In this document: positions 36,602 to 43,790 of the stretch, one piece after another
Position numbering within the stretch: the first letter of the stretch is position 1
Layout: every line of letters begins with the position of its first letter
NCBI GenBank assembly: GCA_029882975.1
Contig: JAOUJW010000001.1
Span: 124,001-188,000 of the forward strand
DNA from: Gammaproteobacteria bacterium
Lineage (GTDB): Bacteria; Pseudomonadota; Gammaproteobacteria; SZUA-152
Direction: 5' to 3'
Length of the DNA: 64,000 bases
The notes under the pieces: generated by a model
What the model was told of the DNA's origin: nothing
Databases searched by the model: none
The model's input: only the letters and a program-made list of their open reading frames with translations
Position numbers and translations under genes: made by a program

Positions 36602-39184
36602 TCATTTCTTGCGTATCAATCGGGTACGGGCCCTGGCCTCCAGTTCCGCTCTTAGAAAACGTTCCTTGGCATCAGAATCCCTTTGTCGCGCTTCCTCTTC
36701 ACGCCTTCTCTGCGCGGTCTCTGCTTTGAGACGGCGTCGTTCCTGTTCTAACTTTTGACTTTCCGCTTCTCCGCGCTTACGGATCTGTTCTGCTTCTGAC
36801 TTCATTTGTAACTCCAAGTCACGCCGATGAGCATCCACTTCGGCTTGCAGTTTCTGCTGCATTTCCTGCTGCAATTTGGCTTTGAGTCGCAGGACTTCCT
36901 GCTCTGTTGCTTTACGGCTTTGCTCCCGCAACTGCTCCTGAATTAACTGCATTCGTTCCGCCATGCTTTTACGCTCTGACGCGGCTTTCTCAATGTCCGC
37001 CAGCAATTGTGCCTGAGCTTGCTGAGTAACTTGCTTAACCTCTTGTTTTAAACGTTCAATTTCCTGTTCGGCTCGAACGCGAGCTTGCTCAGCCTCACGG
37101 GCATATTTGGCTTCCGCTGCGGCTTTACGGGCAATTTCACTCAGTTCCTTTTGCATCGCTGCCAAGGTTTTTTGTTCAACGTTCTTACCACCTTGCTTTA
37201 AGGCCATCACCTCGTGCCGCAATCGGGCAATTTCCGTTTCAGCGTGTTGCCGGGATTGCTCCGCGTATCGGGCACGCTCGGCCTCCTGTCGGGCGATTTT
37301 CATAGCATCTTCGATTTCTGCTTGCTTGTTTGCCAATTCGACAGCCCGCGCTCTAGCCGCTTCGTGCTCAAAATCAGAACGGGCAGCCATCGATTCGAAG
37401 GACGGTTTATCGCCTGTAAGTGCCATTACTTGCCCATTATGCTGAGCCGCTGCCGATTTGGCCGCCTCCACTTCACGTTTGAGCCGTTCTATTTCCGCCT
37501 GCGCCGCTTCGTGGGCTTGTTCTGCTTCACGAGCACGTTGAGCTTCTTTCTCTGCTATTCGCGCGATTTGTTCATTTTGTTTTTTTGCTTCAACAGCAGC
37601 GAAGCGTTGGATGGCCTTGGCGGTTTTACTGGCCTCATCACGCGCTTGCTGCAATGCCAACTGCATTTGCCGCTTCATATTGTCTATTTCTTGCTCTGCC
37701 AGTTTCAGGGCTTCATTCGCCTCTGTGGCTCGCTTGGCCTCATATTGCGCTTGGCGTATTGCCTGCTCCATCTCAGCCTGCTTGTAACCCAACTCCAGTT
37801 CACTGATACGAGCGGCCTCACGCACCGTTGGCAATACCTGAGGAGATTCCTCTGCTGCGAACTCCGCTTGACGCCTGGCTTCCACAGCCTCTTGTCGCGC
37901 TTGCTCGGCTTCACGTTTGAGGCGAACCACTTCCTGCTCCGCTACGCGCCTGGCCCGCTCCGCTTCGCCCAATCGTGCAGCGTGATCAGTGACCCGCGTC
38001 TTGGCTTTGCGAAACAACTCCCTCACTTTCGGATCTTGCATCGCTTCGCGCGTGGAATCATTGATAGGTGTAAGCGTTGGAATAGCGTGCTTGGATACGA
38101 CTTTTTTTACCGATCGGGTTTTCTGGGTTTCGCCGTTACCGCGTTTGACTGAATCCGGTAGATTTTCCAGGCCATAACGCAATACCACGGCATCCAGACC
38201 TTGTTGACACAGCAGAAAGGCTGCGGCAGCTGCTCGACTTCCCGTATTACTGCAGACCACATAGCGCTTGTTTGCATCCAGCTTTTTCAGCTTACCCCGA
38301 AGCTCACTCAACATCGCAAATAGGCTGCCGTTTATACCGTCACGAATATAGTCGTCGTAGTAACGCACATCCATAAAAATCGTGTTATCCTGATAGGCGA
38401 CCTCATCGTATCCCACATGAGCAATTAATGGTTCGACCAGTAATTCGCTAAAATCATCTCTGGACAAAACCATTAATTGTCCGTCTTCCATCATCGTAAT
38501 AGTAGCGCCGCGACGGTTGTGGGTAATGATGGACTCTTCTCCGAAGCCGGATCCGGGCCCCAAAACGGCCAATTCCACTTCATTGTCTTGCGGTGAGTGC
38601 TTACGTACGACGCGACAACGACCGCTTTTGATAATGTAGTAGTTTCCATCGTCATCGCCTTGGCGAATAATGACCTCGTTGGCGTTGACCTTTCGTTCCT
38701 TTAACCGCATCATTAATGCCTGGATGTTGGTCGCAGGCAGTTTCACGAAAATGCTGGACTGCAGAAAGGCATTCATCCAATCCTGCTCGTTCAATTCCAA
38801 CTCTCCGACCTCATAGCCGTCGCGGTATCCCATATTGATCACTTCTTCAAATATGGACATATCGATGCTAAGCACACTAACCTTGCCCCGCGCAATGGCT
38901 GTCGCTTTACGCGGCTGTACCGGAGTCAACGCATAACGGGACTCCTTGCTGTCTGCCTGAATCCATTTTACATTGCCCTTGGCGTACATCAGTTTGACCT
39001 GGCCGGACAGAAGGTAATATGCCTTGTTATCAGTAGTGCCTTTCTTAAATATTTGTTTCCCGGATGCAAAAGTTTCAATACTGTACCGATTGTGTAATTC
39101 CTTCAGTTGCGCATCATCCAGGTCACCGAACGGCACCAATGTTCGCAGCAGATTTTCATCCAGTAGGTCTTTTACGGCTGTCAT
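36602..39184 (-). CDS. Double cNMP-binding / rhodanese / long coiled-coil protein
   Basis: An 860-residue cytoplasmic protein. Two cyclic-nucleotide-binding folds are seen at about 15-118 and 140-250; the second is the better, with GDDDGNYYIIKSGRCRVVR and GPGSGFGEESI. A rhodanese domain follows (255-345) with active-site loop CSNTGSR (Cys311). From about 385 to the end it is nearly pure Ala/Glu/Arg/Lys coiled coil (EAERARRVAEQEVVRLKREA and similar). The start at 39184 is chosen as conserved sequence begins there; the frame opens at 39280. It has no DNA-binding domain. A scaffold that responds to a ligand is inferred. Confidence 0.85.
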   Translation of the reverse strand: MTAVKDLLDENLLRTLVPFGDLDDAQLKELHNRYSIETFASGKQIFKKGTTDNKAYYLLSGQVKLMYAKGNVKWIQADSKESRYALTPVQPRKATAIARGKVSVLSIDMSIFEEVINMGYRDGYEVGELELNEQDWMNAFLQSSIFVKLPATNIQALMMRLKERKVNANEVIIRQGDDDGNYYIIKSGRCRVVRKHSPQDNEVELAVLGPGSGFGEESIITHNRRGATITMMEDGQLMVLSRDDFSELLVEPLIAHVGYDEVAYQDNTIFMDVRYYDDYIRDGINGSLFAMLSELRGKLKKLDANKRYVVCSNTGSRAAAAAFLLCQQGLDAVVLRYGLENLPDSVKRGNGETQKTRSVKKVVSKHAIPTLTPINDSTREAMQDPKVRELFRKAKTRVTDHAARLGEAERARRVAEQEVVRLKREAEQARQEAVEARRQAEFAAEESPQVLPTVREAARISELELGYKQAEMEQAIRQAQYEAKRATEANEALKLAEQEIDNMKRQMQLALQQARDEASKTAKAIQRFAAVEAKKQNEQIARIAEKEAQRAREAEQAHEAAQAEIERLKREVEAAKSAAAQHNGQVMALTGDKPSFESMAARSDFEHEAARARAVELANKQAEIEDAMKIARQEAERARYAEQSRQHAETEIARLRHEVMALKQGGKNVEQKTLAAMQKELSEIARKAAAEAKYAREAEQARVRAEQEIERLKQEVKQVTQQAQAQLLADIEKAASERKSMAERMQLIQEQLREQSRKATEQEVLRLKAKLQQEMQQKLQAEVDAHRRDLELQMKSEAEQIRKRGEAESQKLEQERRRLKAETAQRRREEEARQRDSDAKERFLRAELEARARTRLIRKK

Positions 39185-39397
39185 AGGAGTTGCTCTGTGT
39201 GTTGACGGGTAATGGTTAATTGAAATTCCAAACTTTCTTACTCGCACATAGCGGCTTGGGTCGCACTCCACACAGAGCACTACCTCACAAAACGATAGAG
39301 GGTAAAATGGTGCTTGAATATCTTGTGATTGTGGTCACAGCCGGAGCGTACAAAATACCTGTTTTACGCGGTAATTTTGCTCTACCTTGCCGTTACC

Positions 39398-40204
39398 TCA
39401 AGACTTAACCTTAACGGTAATGGAGGAAATGTTGTTGGACTTTAGCAAGGAACGTACTCTACCCATTTTTTCCACGTCAGCAAATGGGCCCACCCGCACT
39501 CGATGCCAAACACCTCGACGCTTCAGGTCTACGCTCACAATCGAAGATTTAATGCCCATCAATGCCAGATTGGCCTTGCGCCGATCCGCCAGCTTAATGT
39601 CCTTAAACGCACCGGCTTGAATAAAATAACTGTGAATCCTGTCACTCTTTGCTGATAATAAATTGGAACCGGGTTTGACCGGTGCTAGTACTCTATCACG
39701 CTCCATTGATATGTCGGGGTTCGGAGAGTTCAAGGTATTTTCTGTTTTATCAACGGCTACGGTAGTTGAAGCGTTTTCCGAAGCTGTTGGTTTTACGGGT
39801 CTGATTCTCAAAGGCAGCAAATCCGACTCCGGAACCACTACCTCCATTTCCGGTAACAGACTGTAAAAATCAAAGGTCTGTTTTGCCCCCTTGGTTTCCG
39901 TCGGTTGTTTCTTTTCCGGTGGTCCTTGCTCAGCGCGAACAATTGGAGTCTGCTTGGTCTCCGGTGCTTTAGCAGTTTTGTCCTGGGATACCTTTGGATC
40001 CAGTTTGATAGAGCCCACCTGCTCAATTAACTTTTTCACATCAATACTTTTGGTTTCAGTGAGCTGGCCCTTTTCATACTGATCCATATAGATTATCAGG
40101 GCTGAAAACCCACTCAAGGCAAGCAGTGCAAAAAGCCAAATGCCTAACGATACAGGCTTGGCATAACCTCGGTTCATTTGCATCGGTTTCATCGTTCGGT
40201 TCAC
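39398..40204 (-). CDS. SPOR-domain inner-membrane protein (FtsN-like)
   Basis: A 268-residue protein with a short cytoplasmic N-terminus, one transmembrane helix (about 19-40), a periplasmic low-complexity stretch, and a C-terminal SPOR domain (from about 190; YFIQAGAFKDIKLADRRKAN and WHRVRVGPFADVEKM) that binds denuded septal peptidoglycan. Topology, length and the position two genes after priA match FtsN-like division proteins in many gammaproteobacteria. Whether it is the essential FtsN cannot be told from sequence. It overlaps the ArgRS-like gene by 4 bases, so the two are cotranslated. Confidence 0.85.
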   Translation of the reverse strand: MNRTMKPMQMNRGYAKPVSLGIWLFALLALSGFSALIIYMDQYEKGQLTETKSIDVKKLIEQVGSIKLDPKVSQDKTAKAPETKQTPIVRAEQGPPEKKQPTETKGAKQTFDFYSLLPEMEVVVPESDLLPLRIRPVKPTASENASTTVAVDKTENTLNSPNPDISMERDRVLAPVKPGSNLLSAKSDRIHSYFIQAGAFKDIKLADRRKANLALMGIKSSIVSVDLKRRGVWHRVRVGPFADVEKMGRVRSLLKSNNISSITVKVKS

Positions 40205-41535
40205 TCCGGGGATTGAATCCCCATCACAGCCATCCCTTGTTGGATTTGCTCACGGGATTGTTGTAAAAGCCCTGTCAACAACCCTTGGACCGGCTCCGGC
40301 AACTGGGCATTGTAATGAGTCTCTGTAAATTTAGCCAATCTGCACAAATGCGCCATCCAAATACCGGGATCCCACTGTTCCAGAGCCAAGTTTAGCTGTT
40401 GTGGGCTGACACGGAGCAAATCCTGCCACTCATGAAAAATGGATTCAATATTTATTCCAATCCCCTCAGTCGGTGCAAAATCTCGATGTTGCCTTGTATG
40501 TAGCATGTGAATGGCCGGAGCCGCATGATCTGTAGCAATCTGTAGCGAGCTTTCCAGCCTTTCGGACAACAACTCTGCCTTTACCAAGCCATCGCGACGT
40601 AATAGCAACAACTCACGCAAAGTGATCCCATCCTCAGCCGCAATATCGGCTTGCAAAAGCTCCGTCCCAGCAGTGAGATGAAGCTGTCCGGGGTAACCGA
40701 TTTTGATGTGAACCTGCCCCGAGGCTGGAACCATACCCGCGACAACACGGTGCAAACAGTCGGCTTGTTGCGGGGTATCTGCCAAAAACCAAAAATGCGT
40801 ATAACCATTACGAAAAACCATATAACAAACTACGATAAAGACTGCTAACTGACTCAGCTGCCCGGCACTTTGAAAAGGGATTTCCTCCTCACCCACCACC
40901 AACCAGGTATCCCCGCTACGGTACTGTAGCAAACCCAGCTCCCGTAGAGCCACCACCGCTGCGGATTCCGGCCCACCCTGGATTTGTTGAGCCTCAACGT
41001 CACTGCGATAAAACCATAGCGTTGGTTCATTACCGATTTCGCCCAAATGTTTTTGAATGTCCGCAAGTACCGCATCGCGGCCGATGCCGGCTATGACATC
41101 CAATTCATCTCCCATCAGTTGCCGCACCTGTGCAGTCAACGCCGCAGCACTGAGAGTAGACCAGCTTGCATCCCAGGTTCGGTGAAACCTATGGCCGTGA
41201 CACCTGTGCACTGTGGCAGCAAAGTCAAAAACATAGTCCCCGTGGTACATATCATCCGACAACTCTACGGATTCACCGCACAATTCCAAATAGCGCAGCC
41301 AGATACTGATGCTAAAAATATCCATGGCAGAACCACAGTCATCCACCAGGAAAGCGGTATCGCAATGCCAGCCCCTGGCCTGCACCATATTCTGGATGGC
41401 GTCCATATGCACCTTGAGCCGCCCCGATTGCACACTTAATGGCCCCTGCGCTGAGAGCGATGACAACAGTAAAAACCGGGGGCTCCTATTTTGTTTAGGC
41501 TCGGGCGGCGGGCTCTTTTTTTTCCGGGGGCCCAT
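40201..41535 (-). CDS. Degenerate arginyl-tRNA synthetase homologue
   Basis: A 444-residue intact protein related to ArgRS. Shared stretches: DIFSISIWLRYLELCGESV (72-90) and HGDYVFDFAATVHRCHG (98-114), AVLADIQKHLGEIG, GITLRELLLL (303-312), and a C-terminal anticodon-domain-like block ending AVMGIQSPE. The HIGH signature (family GPLHVGHGRG) reads GPLSVQSGRL: both His are lost. The KMSK region (just before TLREL) reads LLQADIAAEDG, lacking Lys/Ser. The N-terminal additional domain (about 120 residues) is absent. It occupies the place of argS between priA and the SPOR gene, overlapping both. It cannot be a normal synthetase; a regulatory role or a slowly decaying paralogue are the alternatives. 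Confidence 0.75.
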   Translation of the reverse strand: MGPRKKKSPPPEPKQNRSPRFLLLSSLSAQGPLSVQSGRLKVHMDAIQNMVQARGWHCDTAFLVDDCGSAMDIFSISIWLRYLELCGESVELSDDMYHGDYVFDFAATVHRCHGHRFHRTWDASWSTLSAAALTAQVRQLMGDELDVIAGIGRDAVLADIQKHLGEIGNEPTLWFYRSDVEAQQIQGGPESAAVVALRELGLLQYRSGDTWLVVGEEEIPFQSAGQLSQLAVFIVVCYMVFRNGYTHFWFLADTPQQADCLHRVVAGMVPASGQVHIKIGYPGQLHLTAGTELLQADIAAEDGITLRELLLLRRDGLVKAELLSERLESSLQIATDHAAPAIHMLHTRQHRDFAPTEGIGINIESIFHEWQDLLRVSPQQLNLALEQWDPGIWMAHLCRLAKFTETHYNAQLPEPVQGLLTGLLQQSREQIQQGMAVMGIQSPE

Positions 41536-43790
41536 CAGTACATTTCCTGTGGGTCTACGTCAATGGACCAACGGACTTTGCGCCCTGACGCCAGCCCCTC
41601 CAAAGCCGCAGCCCAAGGCAGTAACAAGCGATGCAGGGCTTGGCGATTATTACACTGTAATAGCAATTGAGCCCGATAACGGCCGGCCCTCCGCTCCATA
41701 GGGGCCGCCACGGGGTCACTGATAAAAATCTCACCCCCGGTAAATAGGCGTGCCTGTTCCGCTGCTTGCGTTAAGAACTCAAAGGGCGGTTCCAGCTTTA
41801 CGGCTTCGGCACGAAGCAACACCAAGTGGCTGAAAGGAGGTAAACCCGCCGCCTGGCGTTCTTGCAGGGCCAGGGTGGCAAAAGCCTTGTAGCCTTGCGT
41901 GATGAGAGTTTGTAACAAAGGATGATCCGGATGATGCGTTTGAATCAACACGCGCCCGGCTTTGTCTCCACGCCCTGAACGACCGGCCACTTGTACCACC
42001 AATTGAGCCATACGCTCTGAAGCACGAAAGTCGGCACTGAACAAGCCCTGATCCACATCCATAATGCCCACCAGAGTTACATTAGGAAAATGATGCCCCT
42101 TGGCCAGCATTTGTGTACCAATTAATATCCGGCTCTTCCCTTGAGTGATATCTTCCAGCTTTTGTTGCAAACTGCCTTTGCGTCGGGTGCTGTCGCGGTC
42201 AACACGATTGAGTTCAACCCCCGGAAAGTGACTTTGTAGACACTGCTCCAAACGCTCTGTACCCTGTCCCAGAGGAATCATGTCCTCGTGCGCACACTCC
42301 GGACAGTGAGTTTGCGCCGGACGTTGCGCACCGCAATGATGGCAACGCAACATTTTATGGGATTGGTACAAAGTCATATGACTGTCACAACGCTTGCAAC
42401 CCGCCACCCAACCGCAAGCATGACACATAAGCACAGGGGCGAAACCGCGTCGATTCAGGAACAACAGAACCTGCTCCCCTTTTTGCAGACACTCTTGAAT
42501 TGCGCCCAGCATGGCCACGGAAAAACCATCCGGCAGTGGCTGATTGCGCACATCCAATAGTTGAATTTTCGGATTCAGTGCAGTACCGGCCCGCTGCGGC
42601 AATTCCAAATGGCGATAACGTTGACTGTACACATTGTGCAAACTTTCCAAAGAAGGAGTGGCCGATCCCAAGAGAACCGGTACATCCAACTGTTGCGCCC
42701 GCCGCACCGCAATATCCCGGGCATGGTAACGGAAACCGTCCTGTTGTTTAAACGACAGGTCATGCTCCTCGTCCACCACAATGAAACCCAGGTTTTTAAA
42801 CGGGGCGAATACAGCGGAACGGGTCCCGATCAACACGGAGGCGCCGGCCTCTGCCACCTGCGTCCACGCCAGCATTCGCTGTCCGGCACTTAAACCGGAA
42901 TGCATCACTGCCACCCTGTCCTCACCCATTGCCGTTCGAAAACGGGTCAACAGTTGCGGTGTCAACCCAATTTCAGGAACCAGAATCAAAACCTGATAAC
43001 CTTGTCGCAGGACTTGATGGGTAATGCGCAAATACACTTCGGTTTTACCGCTTCCGGTGATCCCTTCCAATAAAAATACCTGAAACCGGCCCAATGCCTG
43101 GGTCACGCTGTCCACAGCATTGCGCTGGGAGTCATTTAGACATAGAGAGTTTGCGTCCGTGCTATCCTGAATTTCCAAGTGCGCACTTTCTGCACGTTCA
43201 CCTATGCCGGGCTGCCCGAGCGACACCACACGTGTATGCACTTGCACCCACCCTTTCCCCAGCAAAGCTTTCATGGGGACACGCCAGGACTCCAGCAATT
43301 CATTAAGCTGTTGCGCATCAAGTCCATCGGGGTGCTCTTGCAGCAATTGGATTAGTAAAGACTGTTTCGCACCACGCACCGACGTGGGTATATTTGCAGG
43401 GATCAATTGAAACACGTCAGCACCAGCCTGAGGCATGGCTTTGGCCTTTCTCAGGTTCAAAGGTAAGGCACTATGAAGTACTTCCCCCAAAGGGTGGGCA
43501 TAGTAGCGACTGGCCCAGAGCAACAACTGCAGAACATCATGGGATAAGCAAGGCTGTTCATCCAACACTTGTAAAATCGGTTTCAGTCGTCCAATTTCCA
43601 CCCCCGCCTGTTGAACTGTTTCTATCAACACACCCACCTGGACCGTGCGACCAAAAGGAACTTCAATACGAACACCCGGCTCTAAAGCTTTGGCCCCACC
43701 GGACTGGGTACCCAGATAATCAAAGCATCGACGCAAAGGCGATGGCACGGCAATACGTAGTATCACTTGGTTAGATTCGGTTTTGGACAT
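41535..43790 (-). CDS. priA: Primosomal protein N' (replication restart helicase PriA)
   Basis: A 751-residue 3'-5' superfamily-2 helicase that reloads the replisome at stalled forks. After the N-terminal 3'-DNA-binding domain come Walker A EGITGSGKTEVYLRI, the DEEH box VVDEEHDLSFKQQDG, and the zinc-binding Cys pairs (CHACGWVAGCKRC, then CHHCGAQRPAQTHCPEC), followed by the helicase lobe (QMLAKGHHFPNVTLVGI, VAGRSGRG). The stop overlaps the start of the ArgRS-like gene (TGATG). The upstream region carries DnaA boxes. Confidence 0.96.
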   Translation of the reverse strand: MSKTESNQVILRIAVPSPLRRCFDYLGTQSGGAKALEPGVRIEVPFGRTVQVGVLIETVQQAGVEIGRLKPILQVLDEQPCLSHDVLQLLLWASRYYAHPLGEVLHSALPLNLRKAKAMPQAGADVFQLIPANIPTSVRGAKQSLLIQLLQEHPDGLDAQQLNELLESWRVPMKALLGKGWVQVHTRVVSLGQPGIGERAESAHLEIQDSTDANSLCLNDSQRNAVDSVTQALGRFQVFLLEGITGSGKTEVYLRITHQVLRQGYQVLILVPEIGLTPQLLTRFRTAMGEDRVAVMHSGLSAGQRMLAWTQVAEAGASVLIGTRSAVFAPFKNLGFIVVDEEHDLSFKQQDGFRYHARDIAVRRAQQLDVPVLLGSATPSLESLHNVYSQRYRHLELPQRAGTALNPKIQLLDVRNQPLPDGFSVAMLGAIQECLQKGEQVLLFLNRRGFAPVLMCHACGWVAGCKRCDSHMTLYQSHKMLRCHHCGAQRPAQTHCPECAHEDMIPLGQGTERLEQCLQSHFPGVELNRVDRDSTRRKGSLQQKLEDITQGKSRILIGTQMLAKGHHFPNVTLVGIMDVDQGLFSADFRASERMAQLVVQVAGRSGRGDKAGRVLIQTHHPDHPLLQTLITQGYKAFATLALQERQAAGLPPFSHLVLLRAEAVKLEPPFEFLTQAAEQARLFTGGEIFISDPVAAPMERRAGRYRAQLLLQCNNRQALHRLLLPWAAALEGLASGRKVRWSIDVDPQEMY

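Follow-up and report, generated by a model that had tools for sequence, protein, structure and literature searches.

An arginyl-tRNA synthetase-derived, apparently non-catalytic protein at the priA-SPOR locus of a gammaproteobacterial genus

What does an open gene that resembles arginyl-tRNA synthetase (ArgRS), and that has apparently lost the signatures of catalysis, encode between priA and a SPOR-domain gene of a gammaproteobacterium? The gene lies on the minus strand at positions 40201-41535 of the window, i.e. the whole stretch of 64,000 nucleotides analyzed, and its product (P0001, 444 aa) was characterized by sequence, profile and fold comparisons. It starts with ATG and is read over 444 codons with no stop or frameshift. 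The stop of the upstream neighbor, priA (41535-43790, minus strand), overlaps this ATG (TGATG), and the GTG start of the downstream SPOR-domain (FtsN-like) gene (39398-40204, minus strand; PF05036, 56 bits) overlaps the stop of P0001 (GTGA). An unbroken gene overlapping both neighbors, in a frequent place of argS between priA and an ftsN-like gene, was what the preliminary description had reported, and both points hold, the argS of relatives also adjoining a SPOR gene. On the same strand, positions 36602-39280 encode a protein of 892 aa whose start is cNMP-binding-like and which contains a charged coiled coil of great and highly variable length (the corresponding frame in the congener has 1499 codons).

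The overlaps with both neighbors, together with the lack of promoter-like sites above chance in the P0001 region, are in line with the main rival explanation, namely a translated spacer of little constrained sequence, kept open because it couples the expression of PriA and the SPOR protein or prevents Rho-dependent polarity. We regard this explanation as unlikely, though it is the strongest of the rivals. In the only other member of the genus compared (G001; the genus sample consists of this genome, G000, and that one, and the remnant is carried by these two species only), an intact ORF of 496 aa (P0002) also lies between priA and the SPOR gene, but it overlaps neither of them, being separated by 12 and 58 bp, respectively. 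Further evidence against a spacer comes from other displaced genomes and from the pattern of conservation described below.

Ancestry and lost catalytic features

Similarity to ArgRS, proposed earlier from the sequence, was recovered by phmmer, by profile-profile alignment and in the fold of the model. The sole match of P0001 to a protein of solved structure was ArgRS from Campylobacter jejuni (3fnr, E 1.6e-6), and a two-sequence profile of P0001 and P0002 aligned with one of ArgRS (416 columns, E 2.2e-45). The AlphaFold2 model of P0001 (pLDDT 78, pTM 0.76) had 3fnr as its top fold match (Foldseek E 7.5e-17; VIA Z 25.4), which gives partial support only, since ArgRS rows stood in the alignment used for the model. 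Pfam searches of P0001 returned no match, PF00750, PF03485 and PF05746 included, and the NCBIfam argS model (TIGR00456) gave 15.3 bits against a cut-off of 261.65. By sequence similarity, fold and gene position, P0001 is a homologue of arginyl-tRNA synthetase. Its evolutionary source is the Campylobacter/Pseudomonas-type bacterial ArgRS represented by 3fnr, with which it shares the predicted fold and the site beside the SPOR gene; unlike enzymes of this type, it lacks the N-terminal domain, as well as HIGH, the KMSKS-equivalent and the arginine-pocket motif.

These losses, also listed in the preliminary description (HIGH turned into SVQS, KMSK region and N-terminal domain gone), were borne out by alignment with ArgRS of the family. 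The former HIGH motif (residues 34-37; 41425-41436, minus strand) reads HVGH in family ArgRS, SVQS in P0001 and TVPE in P0002. At the KMSKS-loop equivalent (residues 296-301; 40633-40650, minus strand) the native enzymes of the family carry MSTRSG, with no literal KMSK, while P0001 has ADIAAE and P0002 TSPLDE. In the equivalent of the arginine/ATP pocket (residues 216-263; 40747-40890, minus strand) the motif residues are lost, the ArgRS region TYFAADIAYH...GADHHGY being replaced in P0001, and the N-terminal domain of ArgRS is absent. P0002 shares the losses of P0001 with different replacement residues. The helical C-terminal domain of P0001, derived from the DALR domain, is eroded (residues 338-437; 40225-40524, minus strand; Pfam and model). 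A DALR-like C-terminus, noted earlier for P0001, is recognized by Pfam in P0002, which passes PF05746 only (24.9 bits, cut-off 22.3), but not in P0001.

Both species also have replacements on the arginine side, at residues that general knowledge of ArgRS assigns to the pocket: E and N ahead of the HIGH motif, Y and D within TYFAADIAY, and GADHHGY. From these sequence replacements we infer that neither P0001 nor P0002 is able to activate arginine. An enzyme still aminoacylating or adenylating by means of unusual motifs, although compatible with the class I synthetase fold predicted overall, is hardly credible, given that HIGH, the KMSKS-equivalent, GADHHGY and the N-domain have been lost in both species with differing replacements, and that a complete argS occurs elsewhere in the genome. 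An arginine sensor or regulator with a retained amino-acid pocket, suggested by analogy with HisZ (PMC9437257), is very improbable as well, neither species having kept the arginine/ATP pocket sequence.

The complete argS and displacement of the native gene

The search proposed earlier for a true argS elsewhere in the genome was successful: PF00750 detected one full ArgRS, of the E. coli type (580 aa; G000:C10:91782-93521). The same was found in the congener, with an E. coli-type argS on contig C117. When 29 E. coli-type sequences were placed in a tree, the two genes came out as sisters (bootstrap 100%), and a single acquisition thus suffices to explain them; their gene neighborhoods do not match. 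The other family members that yielded argS have the native type, of about 590 aa and full-length unless the contig ends. A SPOR gene was found within the fetched flank of native argS in 12 family relatives, and priA lies directly upstream of argS in three (G002, G003 and G004, the last matching JAADGF010000064.1, a metagenome-assembled gammaproteobacterium). The presence of native argS at this locus in relatives, together with an E. coli-type argS elsewhere in the genome, indicates that P0001 is the displaced native gene and not a duplicate. Adjacency to the SPOR gene, the only pointer to a division role for P0001, is not telling in this respect, since it is inherited from the argS-SPOR order of the relatives.

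E. coli-type argS was detected in 29 of the 274 sampled genomes of the class, this one included. At least six other displaced genomes (G059, G088, G219, G139, G096 and G243) show priA followed directly by a SPOR-type gene, called by sequence features and not by profile search, with no remnant in between. This arrangement argues against the need for a translated spacer, although argS may have been absent from the priA-SPOR site all along in some of the remnant-free lineages. Two genomes, G074 and G184, have the E. coli-type argS directly after priA, an apparent replacement in place. In G181 an intact native argS follows priA and coexists with an intact argS of the E. coli type. In G024, which belongs to the same family as G181, the native argS is also intact, and pieces of an E. 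coli-type argS are present in two frames. Both genomes are plausible intermediates of redundancy, contamination being the alternative.

No further degenerate relatives were found among the matches listed from 369 genomes of the class, the best of which were full-length frames of ArgRS type, and nearly all of 80 named loci have HIGH, the exceptions being L071, a variant, and L106, whose ORF is split. A plasmid search gave distant matches only. Among the matches listed, retention of the dead form was seen in this genus only.

Conservation between the two remnants

Conventional dN/dS was abandoned because synonymous sites were saturated, even in priA: between the two species pS was 0.75 for the remnants, 0.84 for priA and 0.81 for the SPOR gene. 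The corresponding pN values were 0.59, 0.24 and 0.32, respectively, and the high divergence of most of P0001 is one more feature expected of a spacer. Divergence was not uniform, however. Within residues 75-148 pN between the remnants fell to 0.375, while residues 297-370 (pN 0.70, pS 0.64) were indistinguishable from neutral. The best conserved block, common to P0002, spans residues 79-111 (WLRYLELCGE...YHGDYVFDFAATVHR; 41203-41301, minus strand; alignment and model). Within GDYVFDFAATVHR, 12 of 13 residues are identical between P0001 and P0002, and 11 of the 12 corresponding codons differ synonymously. Forty of the 228 positions near-invariant in the ArgRS sample are kept by both remnants, and these doubly kept residues cluster at 79-128 (none of 20000 shuffles was as clustered). 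Conservation of the protein with synonymous turnover, concentrated in this manner, counts against a spacer.

The same data bear on the possibility that the gene is a decaying pseudogene, open by chance. Loss of the catalytic motifs, truncation of the N-terminus and very high divergence would all be expected of decay; nevertheless, two ORFs of 444 and 496 codons have stayed open at synonymous saturation, and no simulated neutral ORF out of 1000 was open at 0.2 or more substitutions per site. Both remnants show the codon-position base composition of the neighboring genes (for P0001, GC of 0.60/0.41/0.54 by codon position, resembling priA and the true argS) and retain second-position conservation. 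Simple decay is thus improbable, more so than a spacer.

In the model of P0001 the conserved block falls in two confidently predicted helices (residues 69-85 and 100-113), and charged residues R81, E84, E88, D100, D104, H110 and R111 are kept in both species, which suggests, as far as sequence and model can tell, that they form a functional surface. Within the block, WLRYLELCGE (41272-41301) has nine of ten codons identical between species despite saturation elsewhere. Its reading as a nucleotide element was set aside, as the same degree of codon identity is reached by 85 of 3486 pairs of ArgRS sharing this peptide, and it may be due to chance.

As conservation is weak outside residues 75-150, only part of P0001 is demonstrably constrained, and the constraint is perhaps not current in both lineages, since conservation of the block may partly predate the loss of the enzyme. 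Both remnants lie on very long branches, at the limit, in the family tree, where their placement is uninformative and their grouping may reflect long-branch attraction. The view of a single origin is therefore based on the sister relationship of the E. coli-type argS and the shared loss of the N-domain, and not on the remnant tree; given the very long branches, some small chance is left to independent decay after speciation.

Proposed origin and possible function

P0001 is probably a retained, non-catalytic ArgRS-derived protein: a true argS lies elsewhere, a second species has an intact counterpart, there is constraint at the level of the protein, and comparable genomes lack any remnant. Selection on the protein is indicated by the constrained block, the clustering of kept residues, the simulation and the codon composition. 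We propose that an ancestor of the genus acquired an E. coli-type argS at another locus, which would have taken over arginylation. The native argS would have stayed at the priA-argS-SPOR locus, losing the N-terminal domain as well as the sites for ATP and arginine, and would have been kept as an expressed, folded protein. P0001 would then act as a binding protein, without catalysis, through a surface formed by the helical insertion, which is still present, and by what is left of the anticodon-binding domain. As a whole, the reading that the displaced native argS became a new non-catalytic family of one genus, with the helical insertion as its functional surface, is somewhat better than an even bet. 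The original idea that a dead derivative of ArgRS has been kept for a job beyond aminoacylation is supported, while the proposed sensing of arginine is disfavored by the loss of the pocket.

Two known systems give an idea of what such a protein may bind. DALRD3 of vertebrates is related to ArgRS, has a DALR domain and no recognizable synthetase catalytic motif, and coexists with true ArgRS; it delivers tRNA-Arg to METTL2, and its authors suggest a possible origin from ArgRS through loss of catalysis (PMC7237682). DALRD3 is eukaryotic and possibly arose by duplication, whereas P0001 is bacterial and was left after displacement of the native gene. In P0001 it is the insertion region that is best kept, with an eroded DALR domain and no Pfam match to it, while P0002 does combine a DALR domain with the absence of catalytic motifs. 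Since P0002 keeps a recognizable DALR domain, RNA binding is possible, tRNA-Arg being a possible ligand of P0001. HisZ, a HisRS paralogue without adenylation activity and with a non-translational role, mediates the response to histidine and pairs with HisG (PMC9437257). P0001 resembles it in being derived from a synthetase and retained, apparently without catalysis, but HisZ is a relative of HisRS (class II), and P0001 has lost its pocket and has no biosynthetic partner gene adjacent. By these analogies, tRNA(Arg) or another RNA, bound in the mode of DALRD3, may tentatively be put forward as the ligand, and a protein partner, in the mode of HisZ, is a candidate only slightly behind it.

In a non-exhaustive literature search, neither a bacterial dead paralogue derived from ArgRS nor a joint treatment of argS/priA/ftsN was found. 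Synthetase-like proteins with new functions mostly belong to old, widespread families whose origins are hard to trace. Here the steps can be followed in one bacterial class: the ancestral argS in relatives, both types side by side in another lineage (G181), several genomes free of a remnant and, in this genus, a dead, fast-evolving form kept in situ. Displacement thus freed an essential enzyme, which has apparently found a new use, and the case can be traced.
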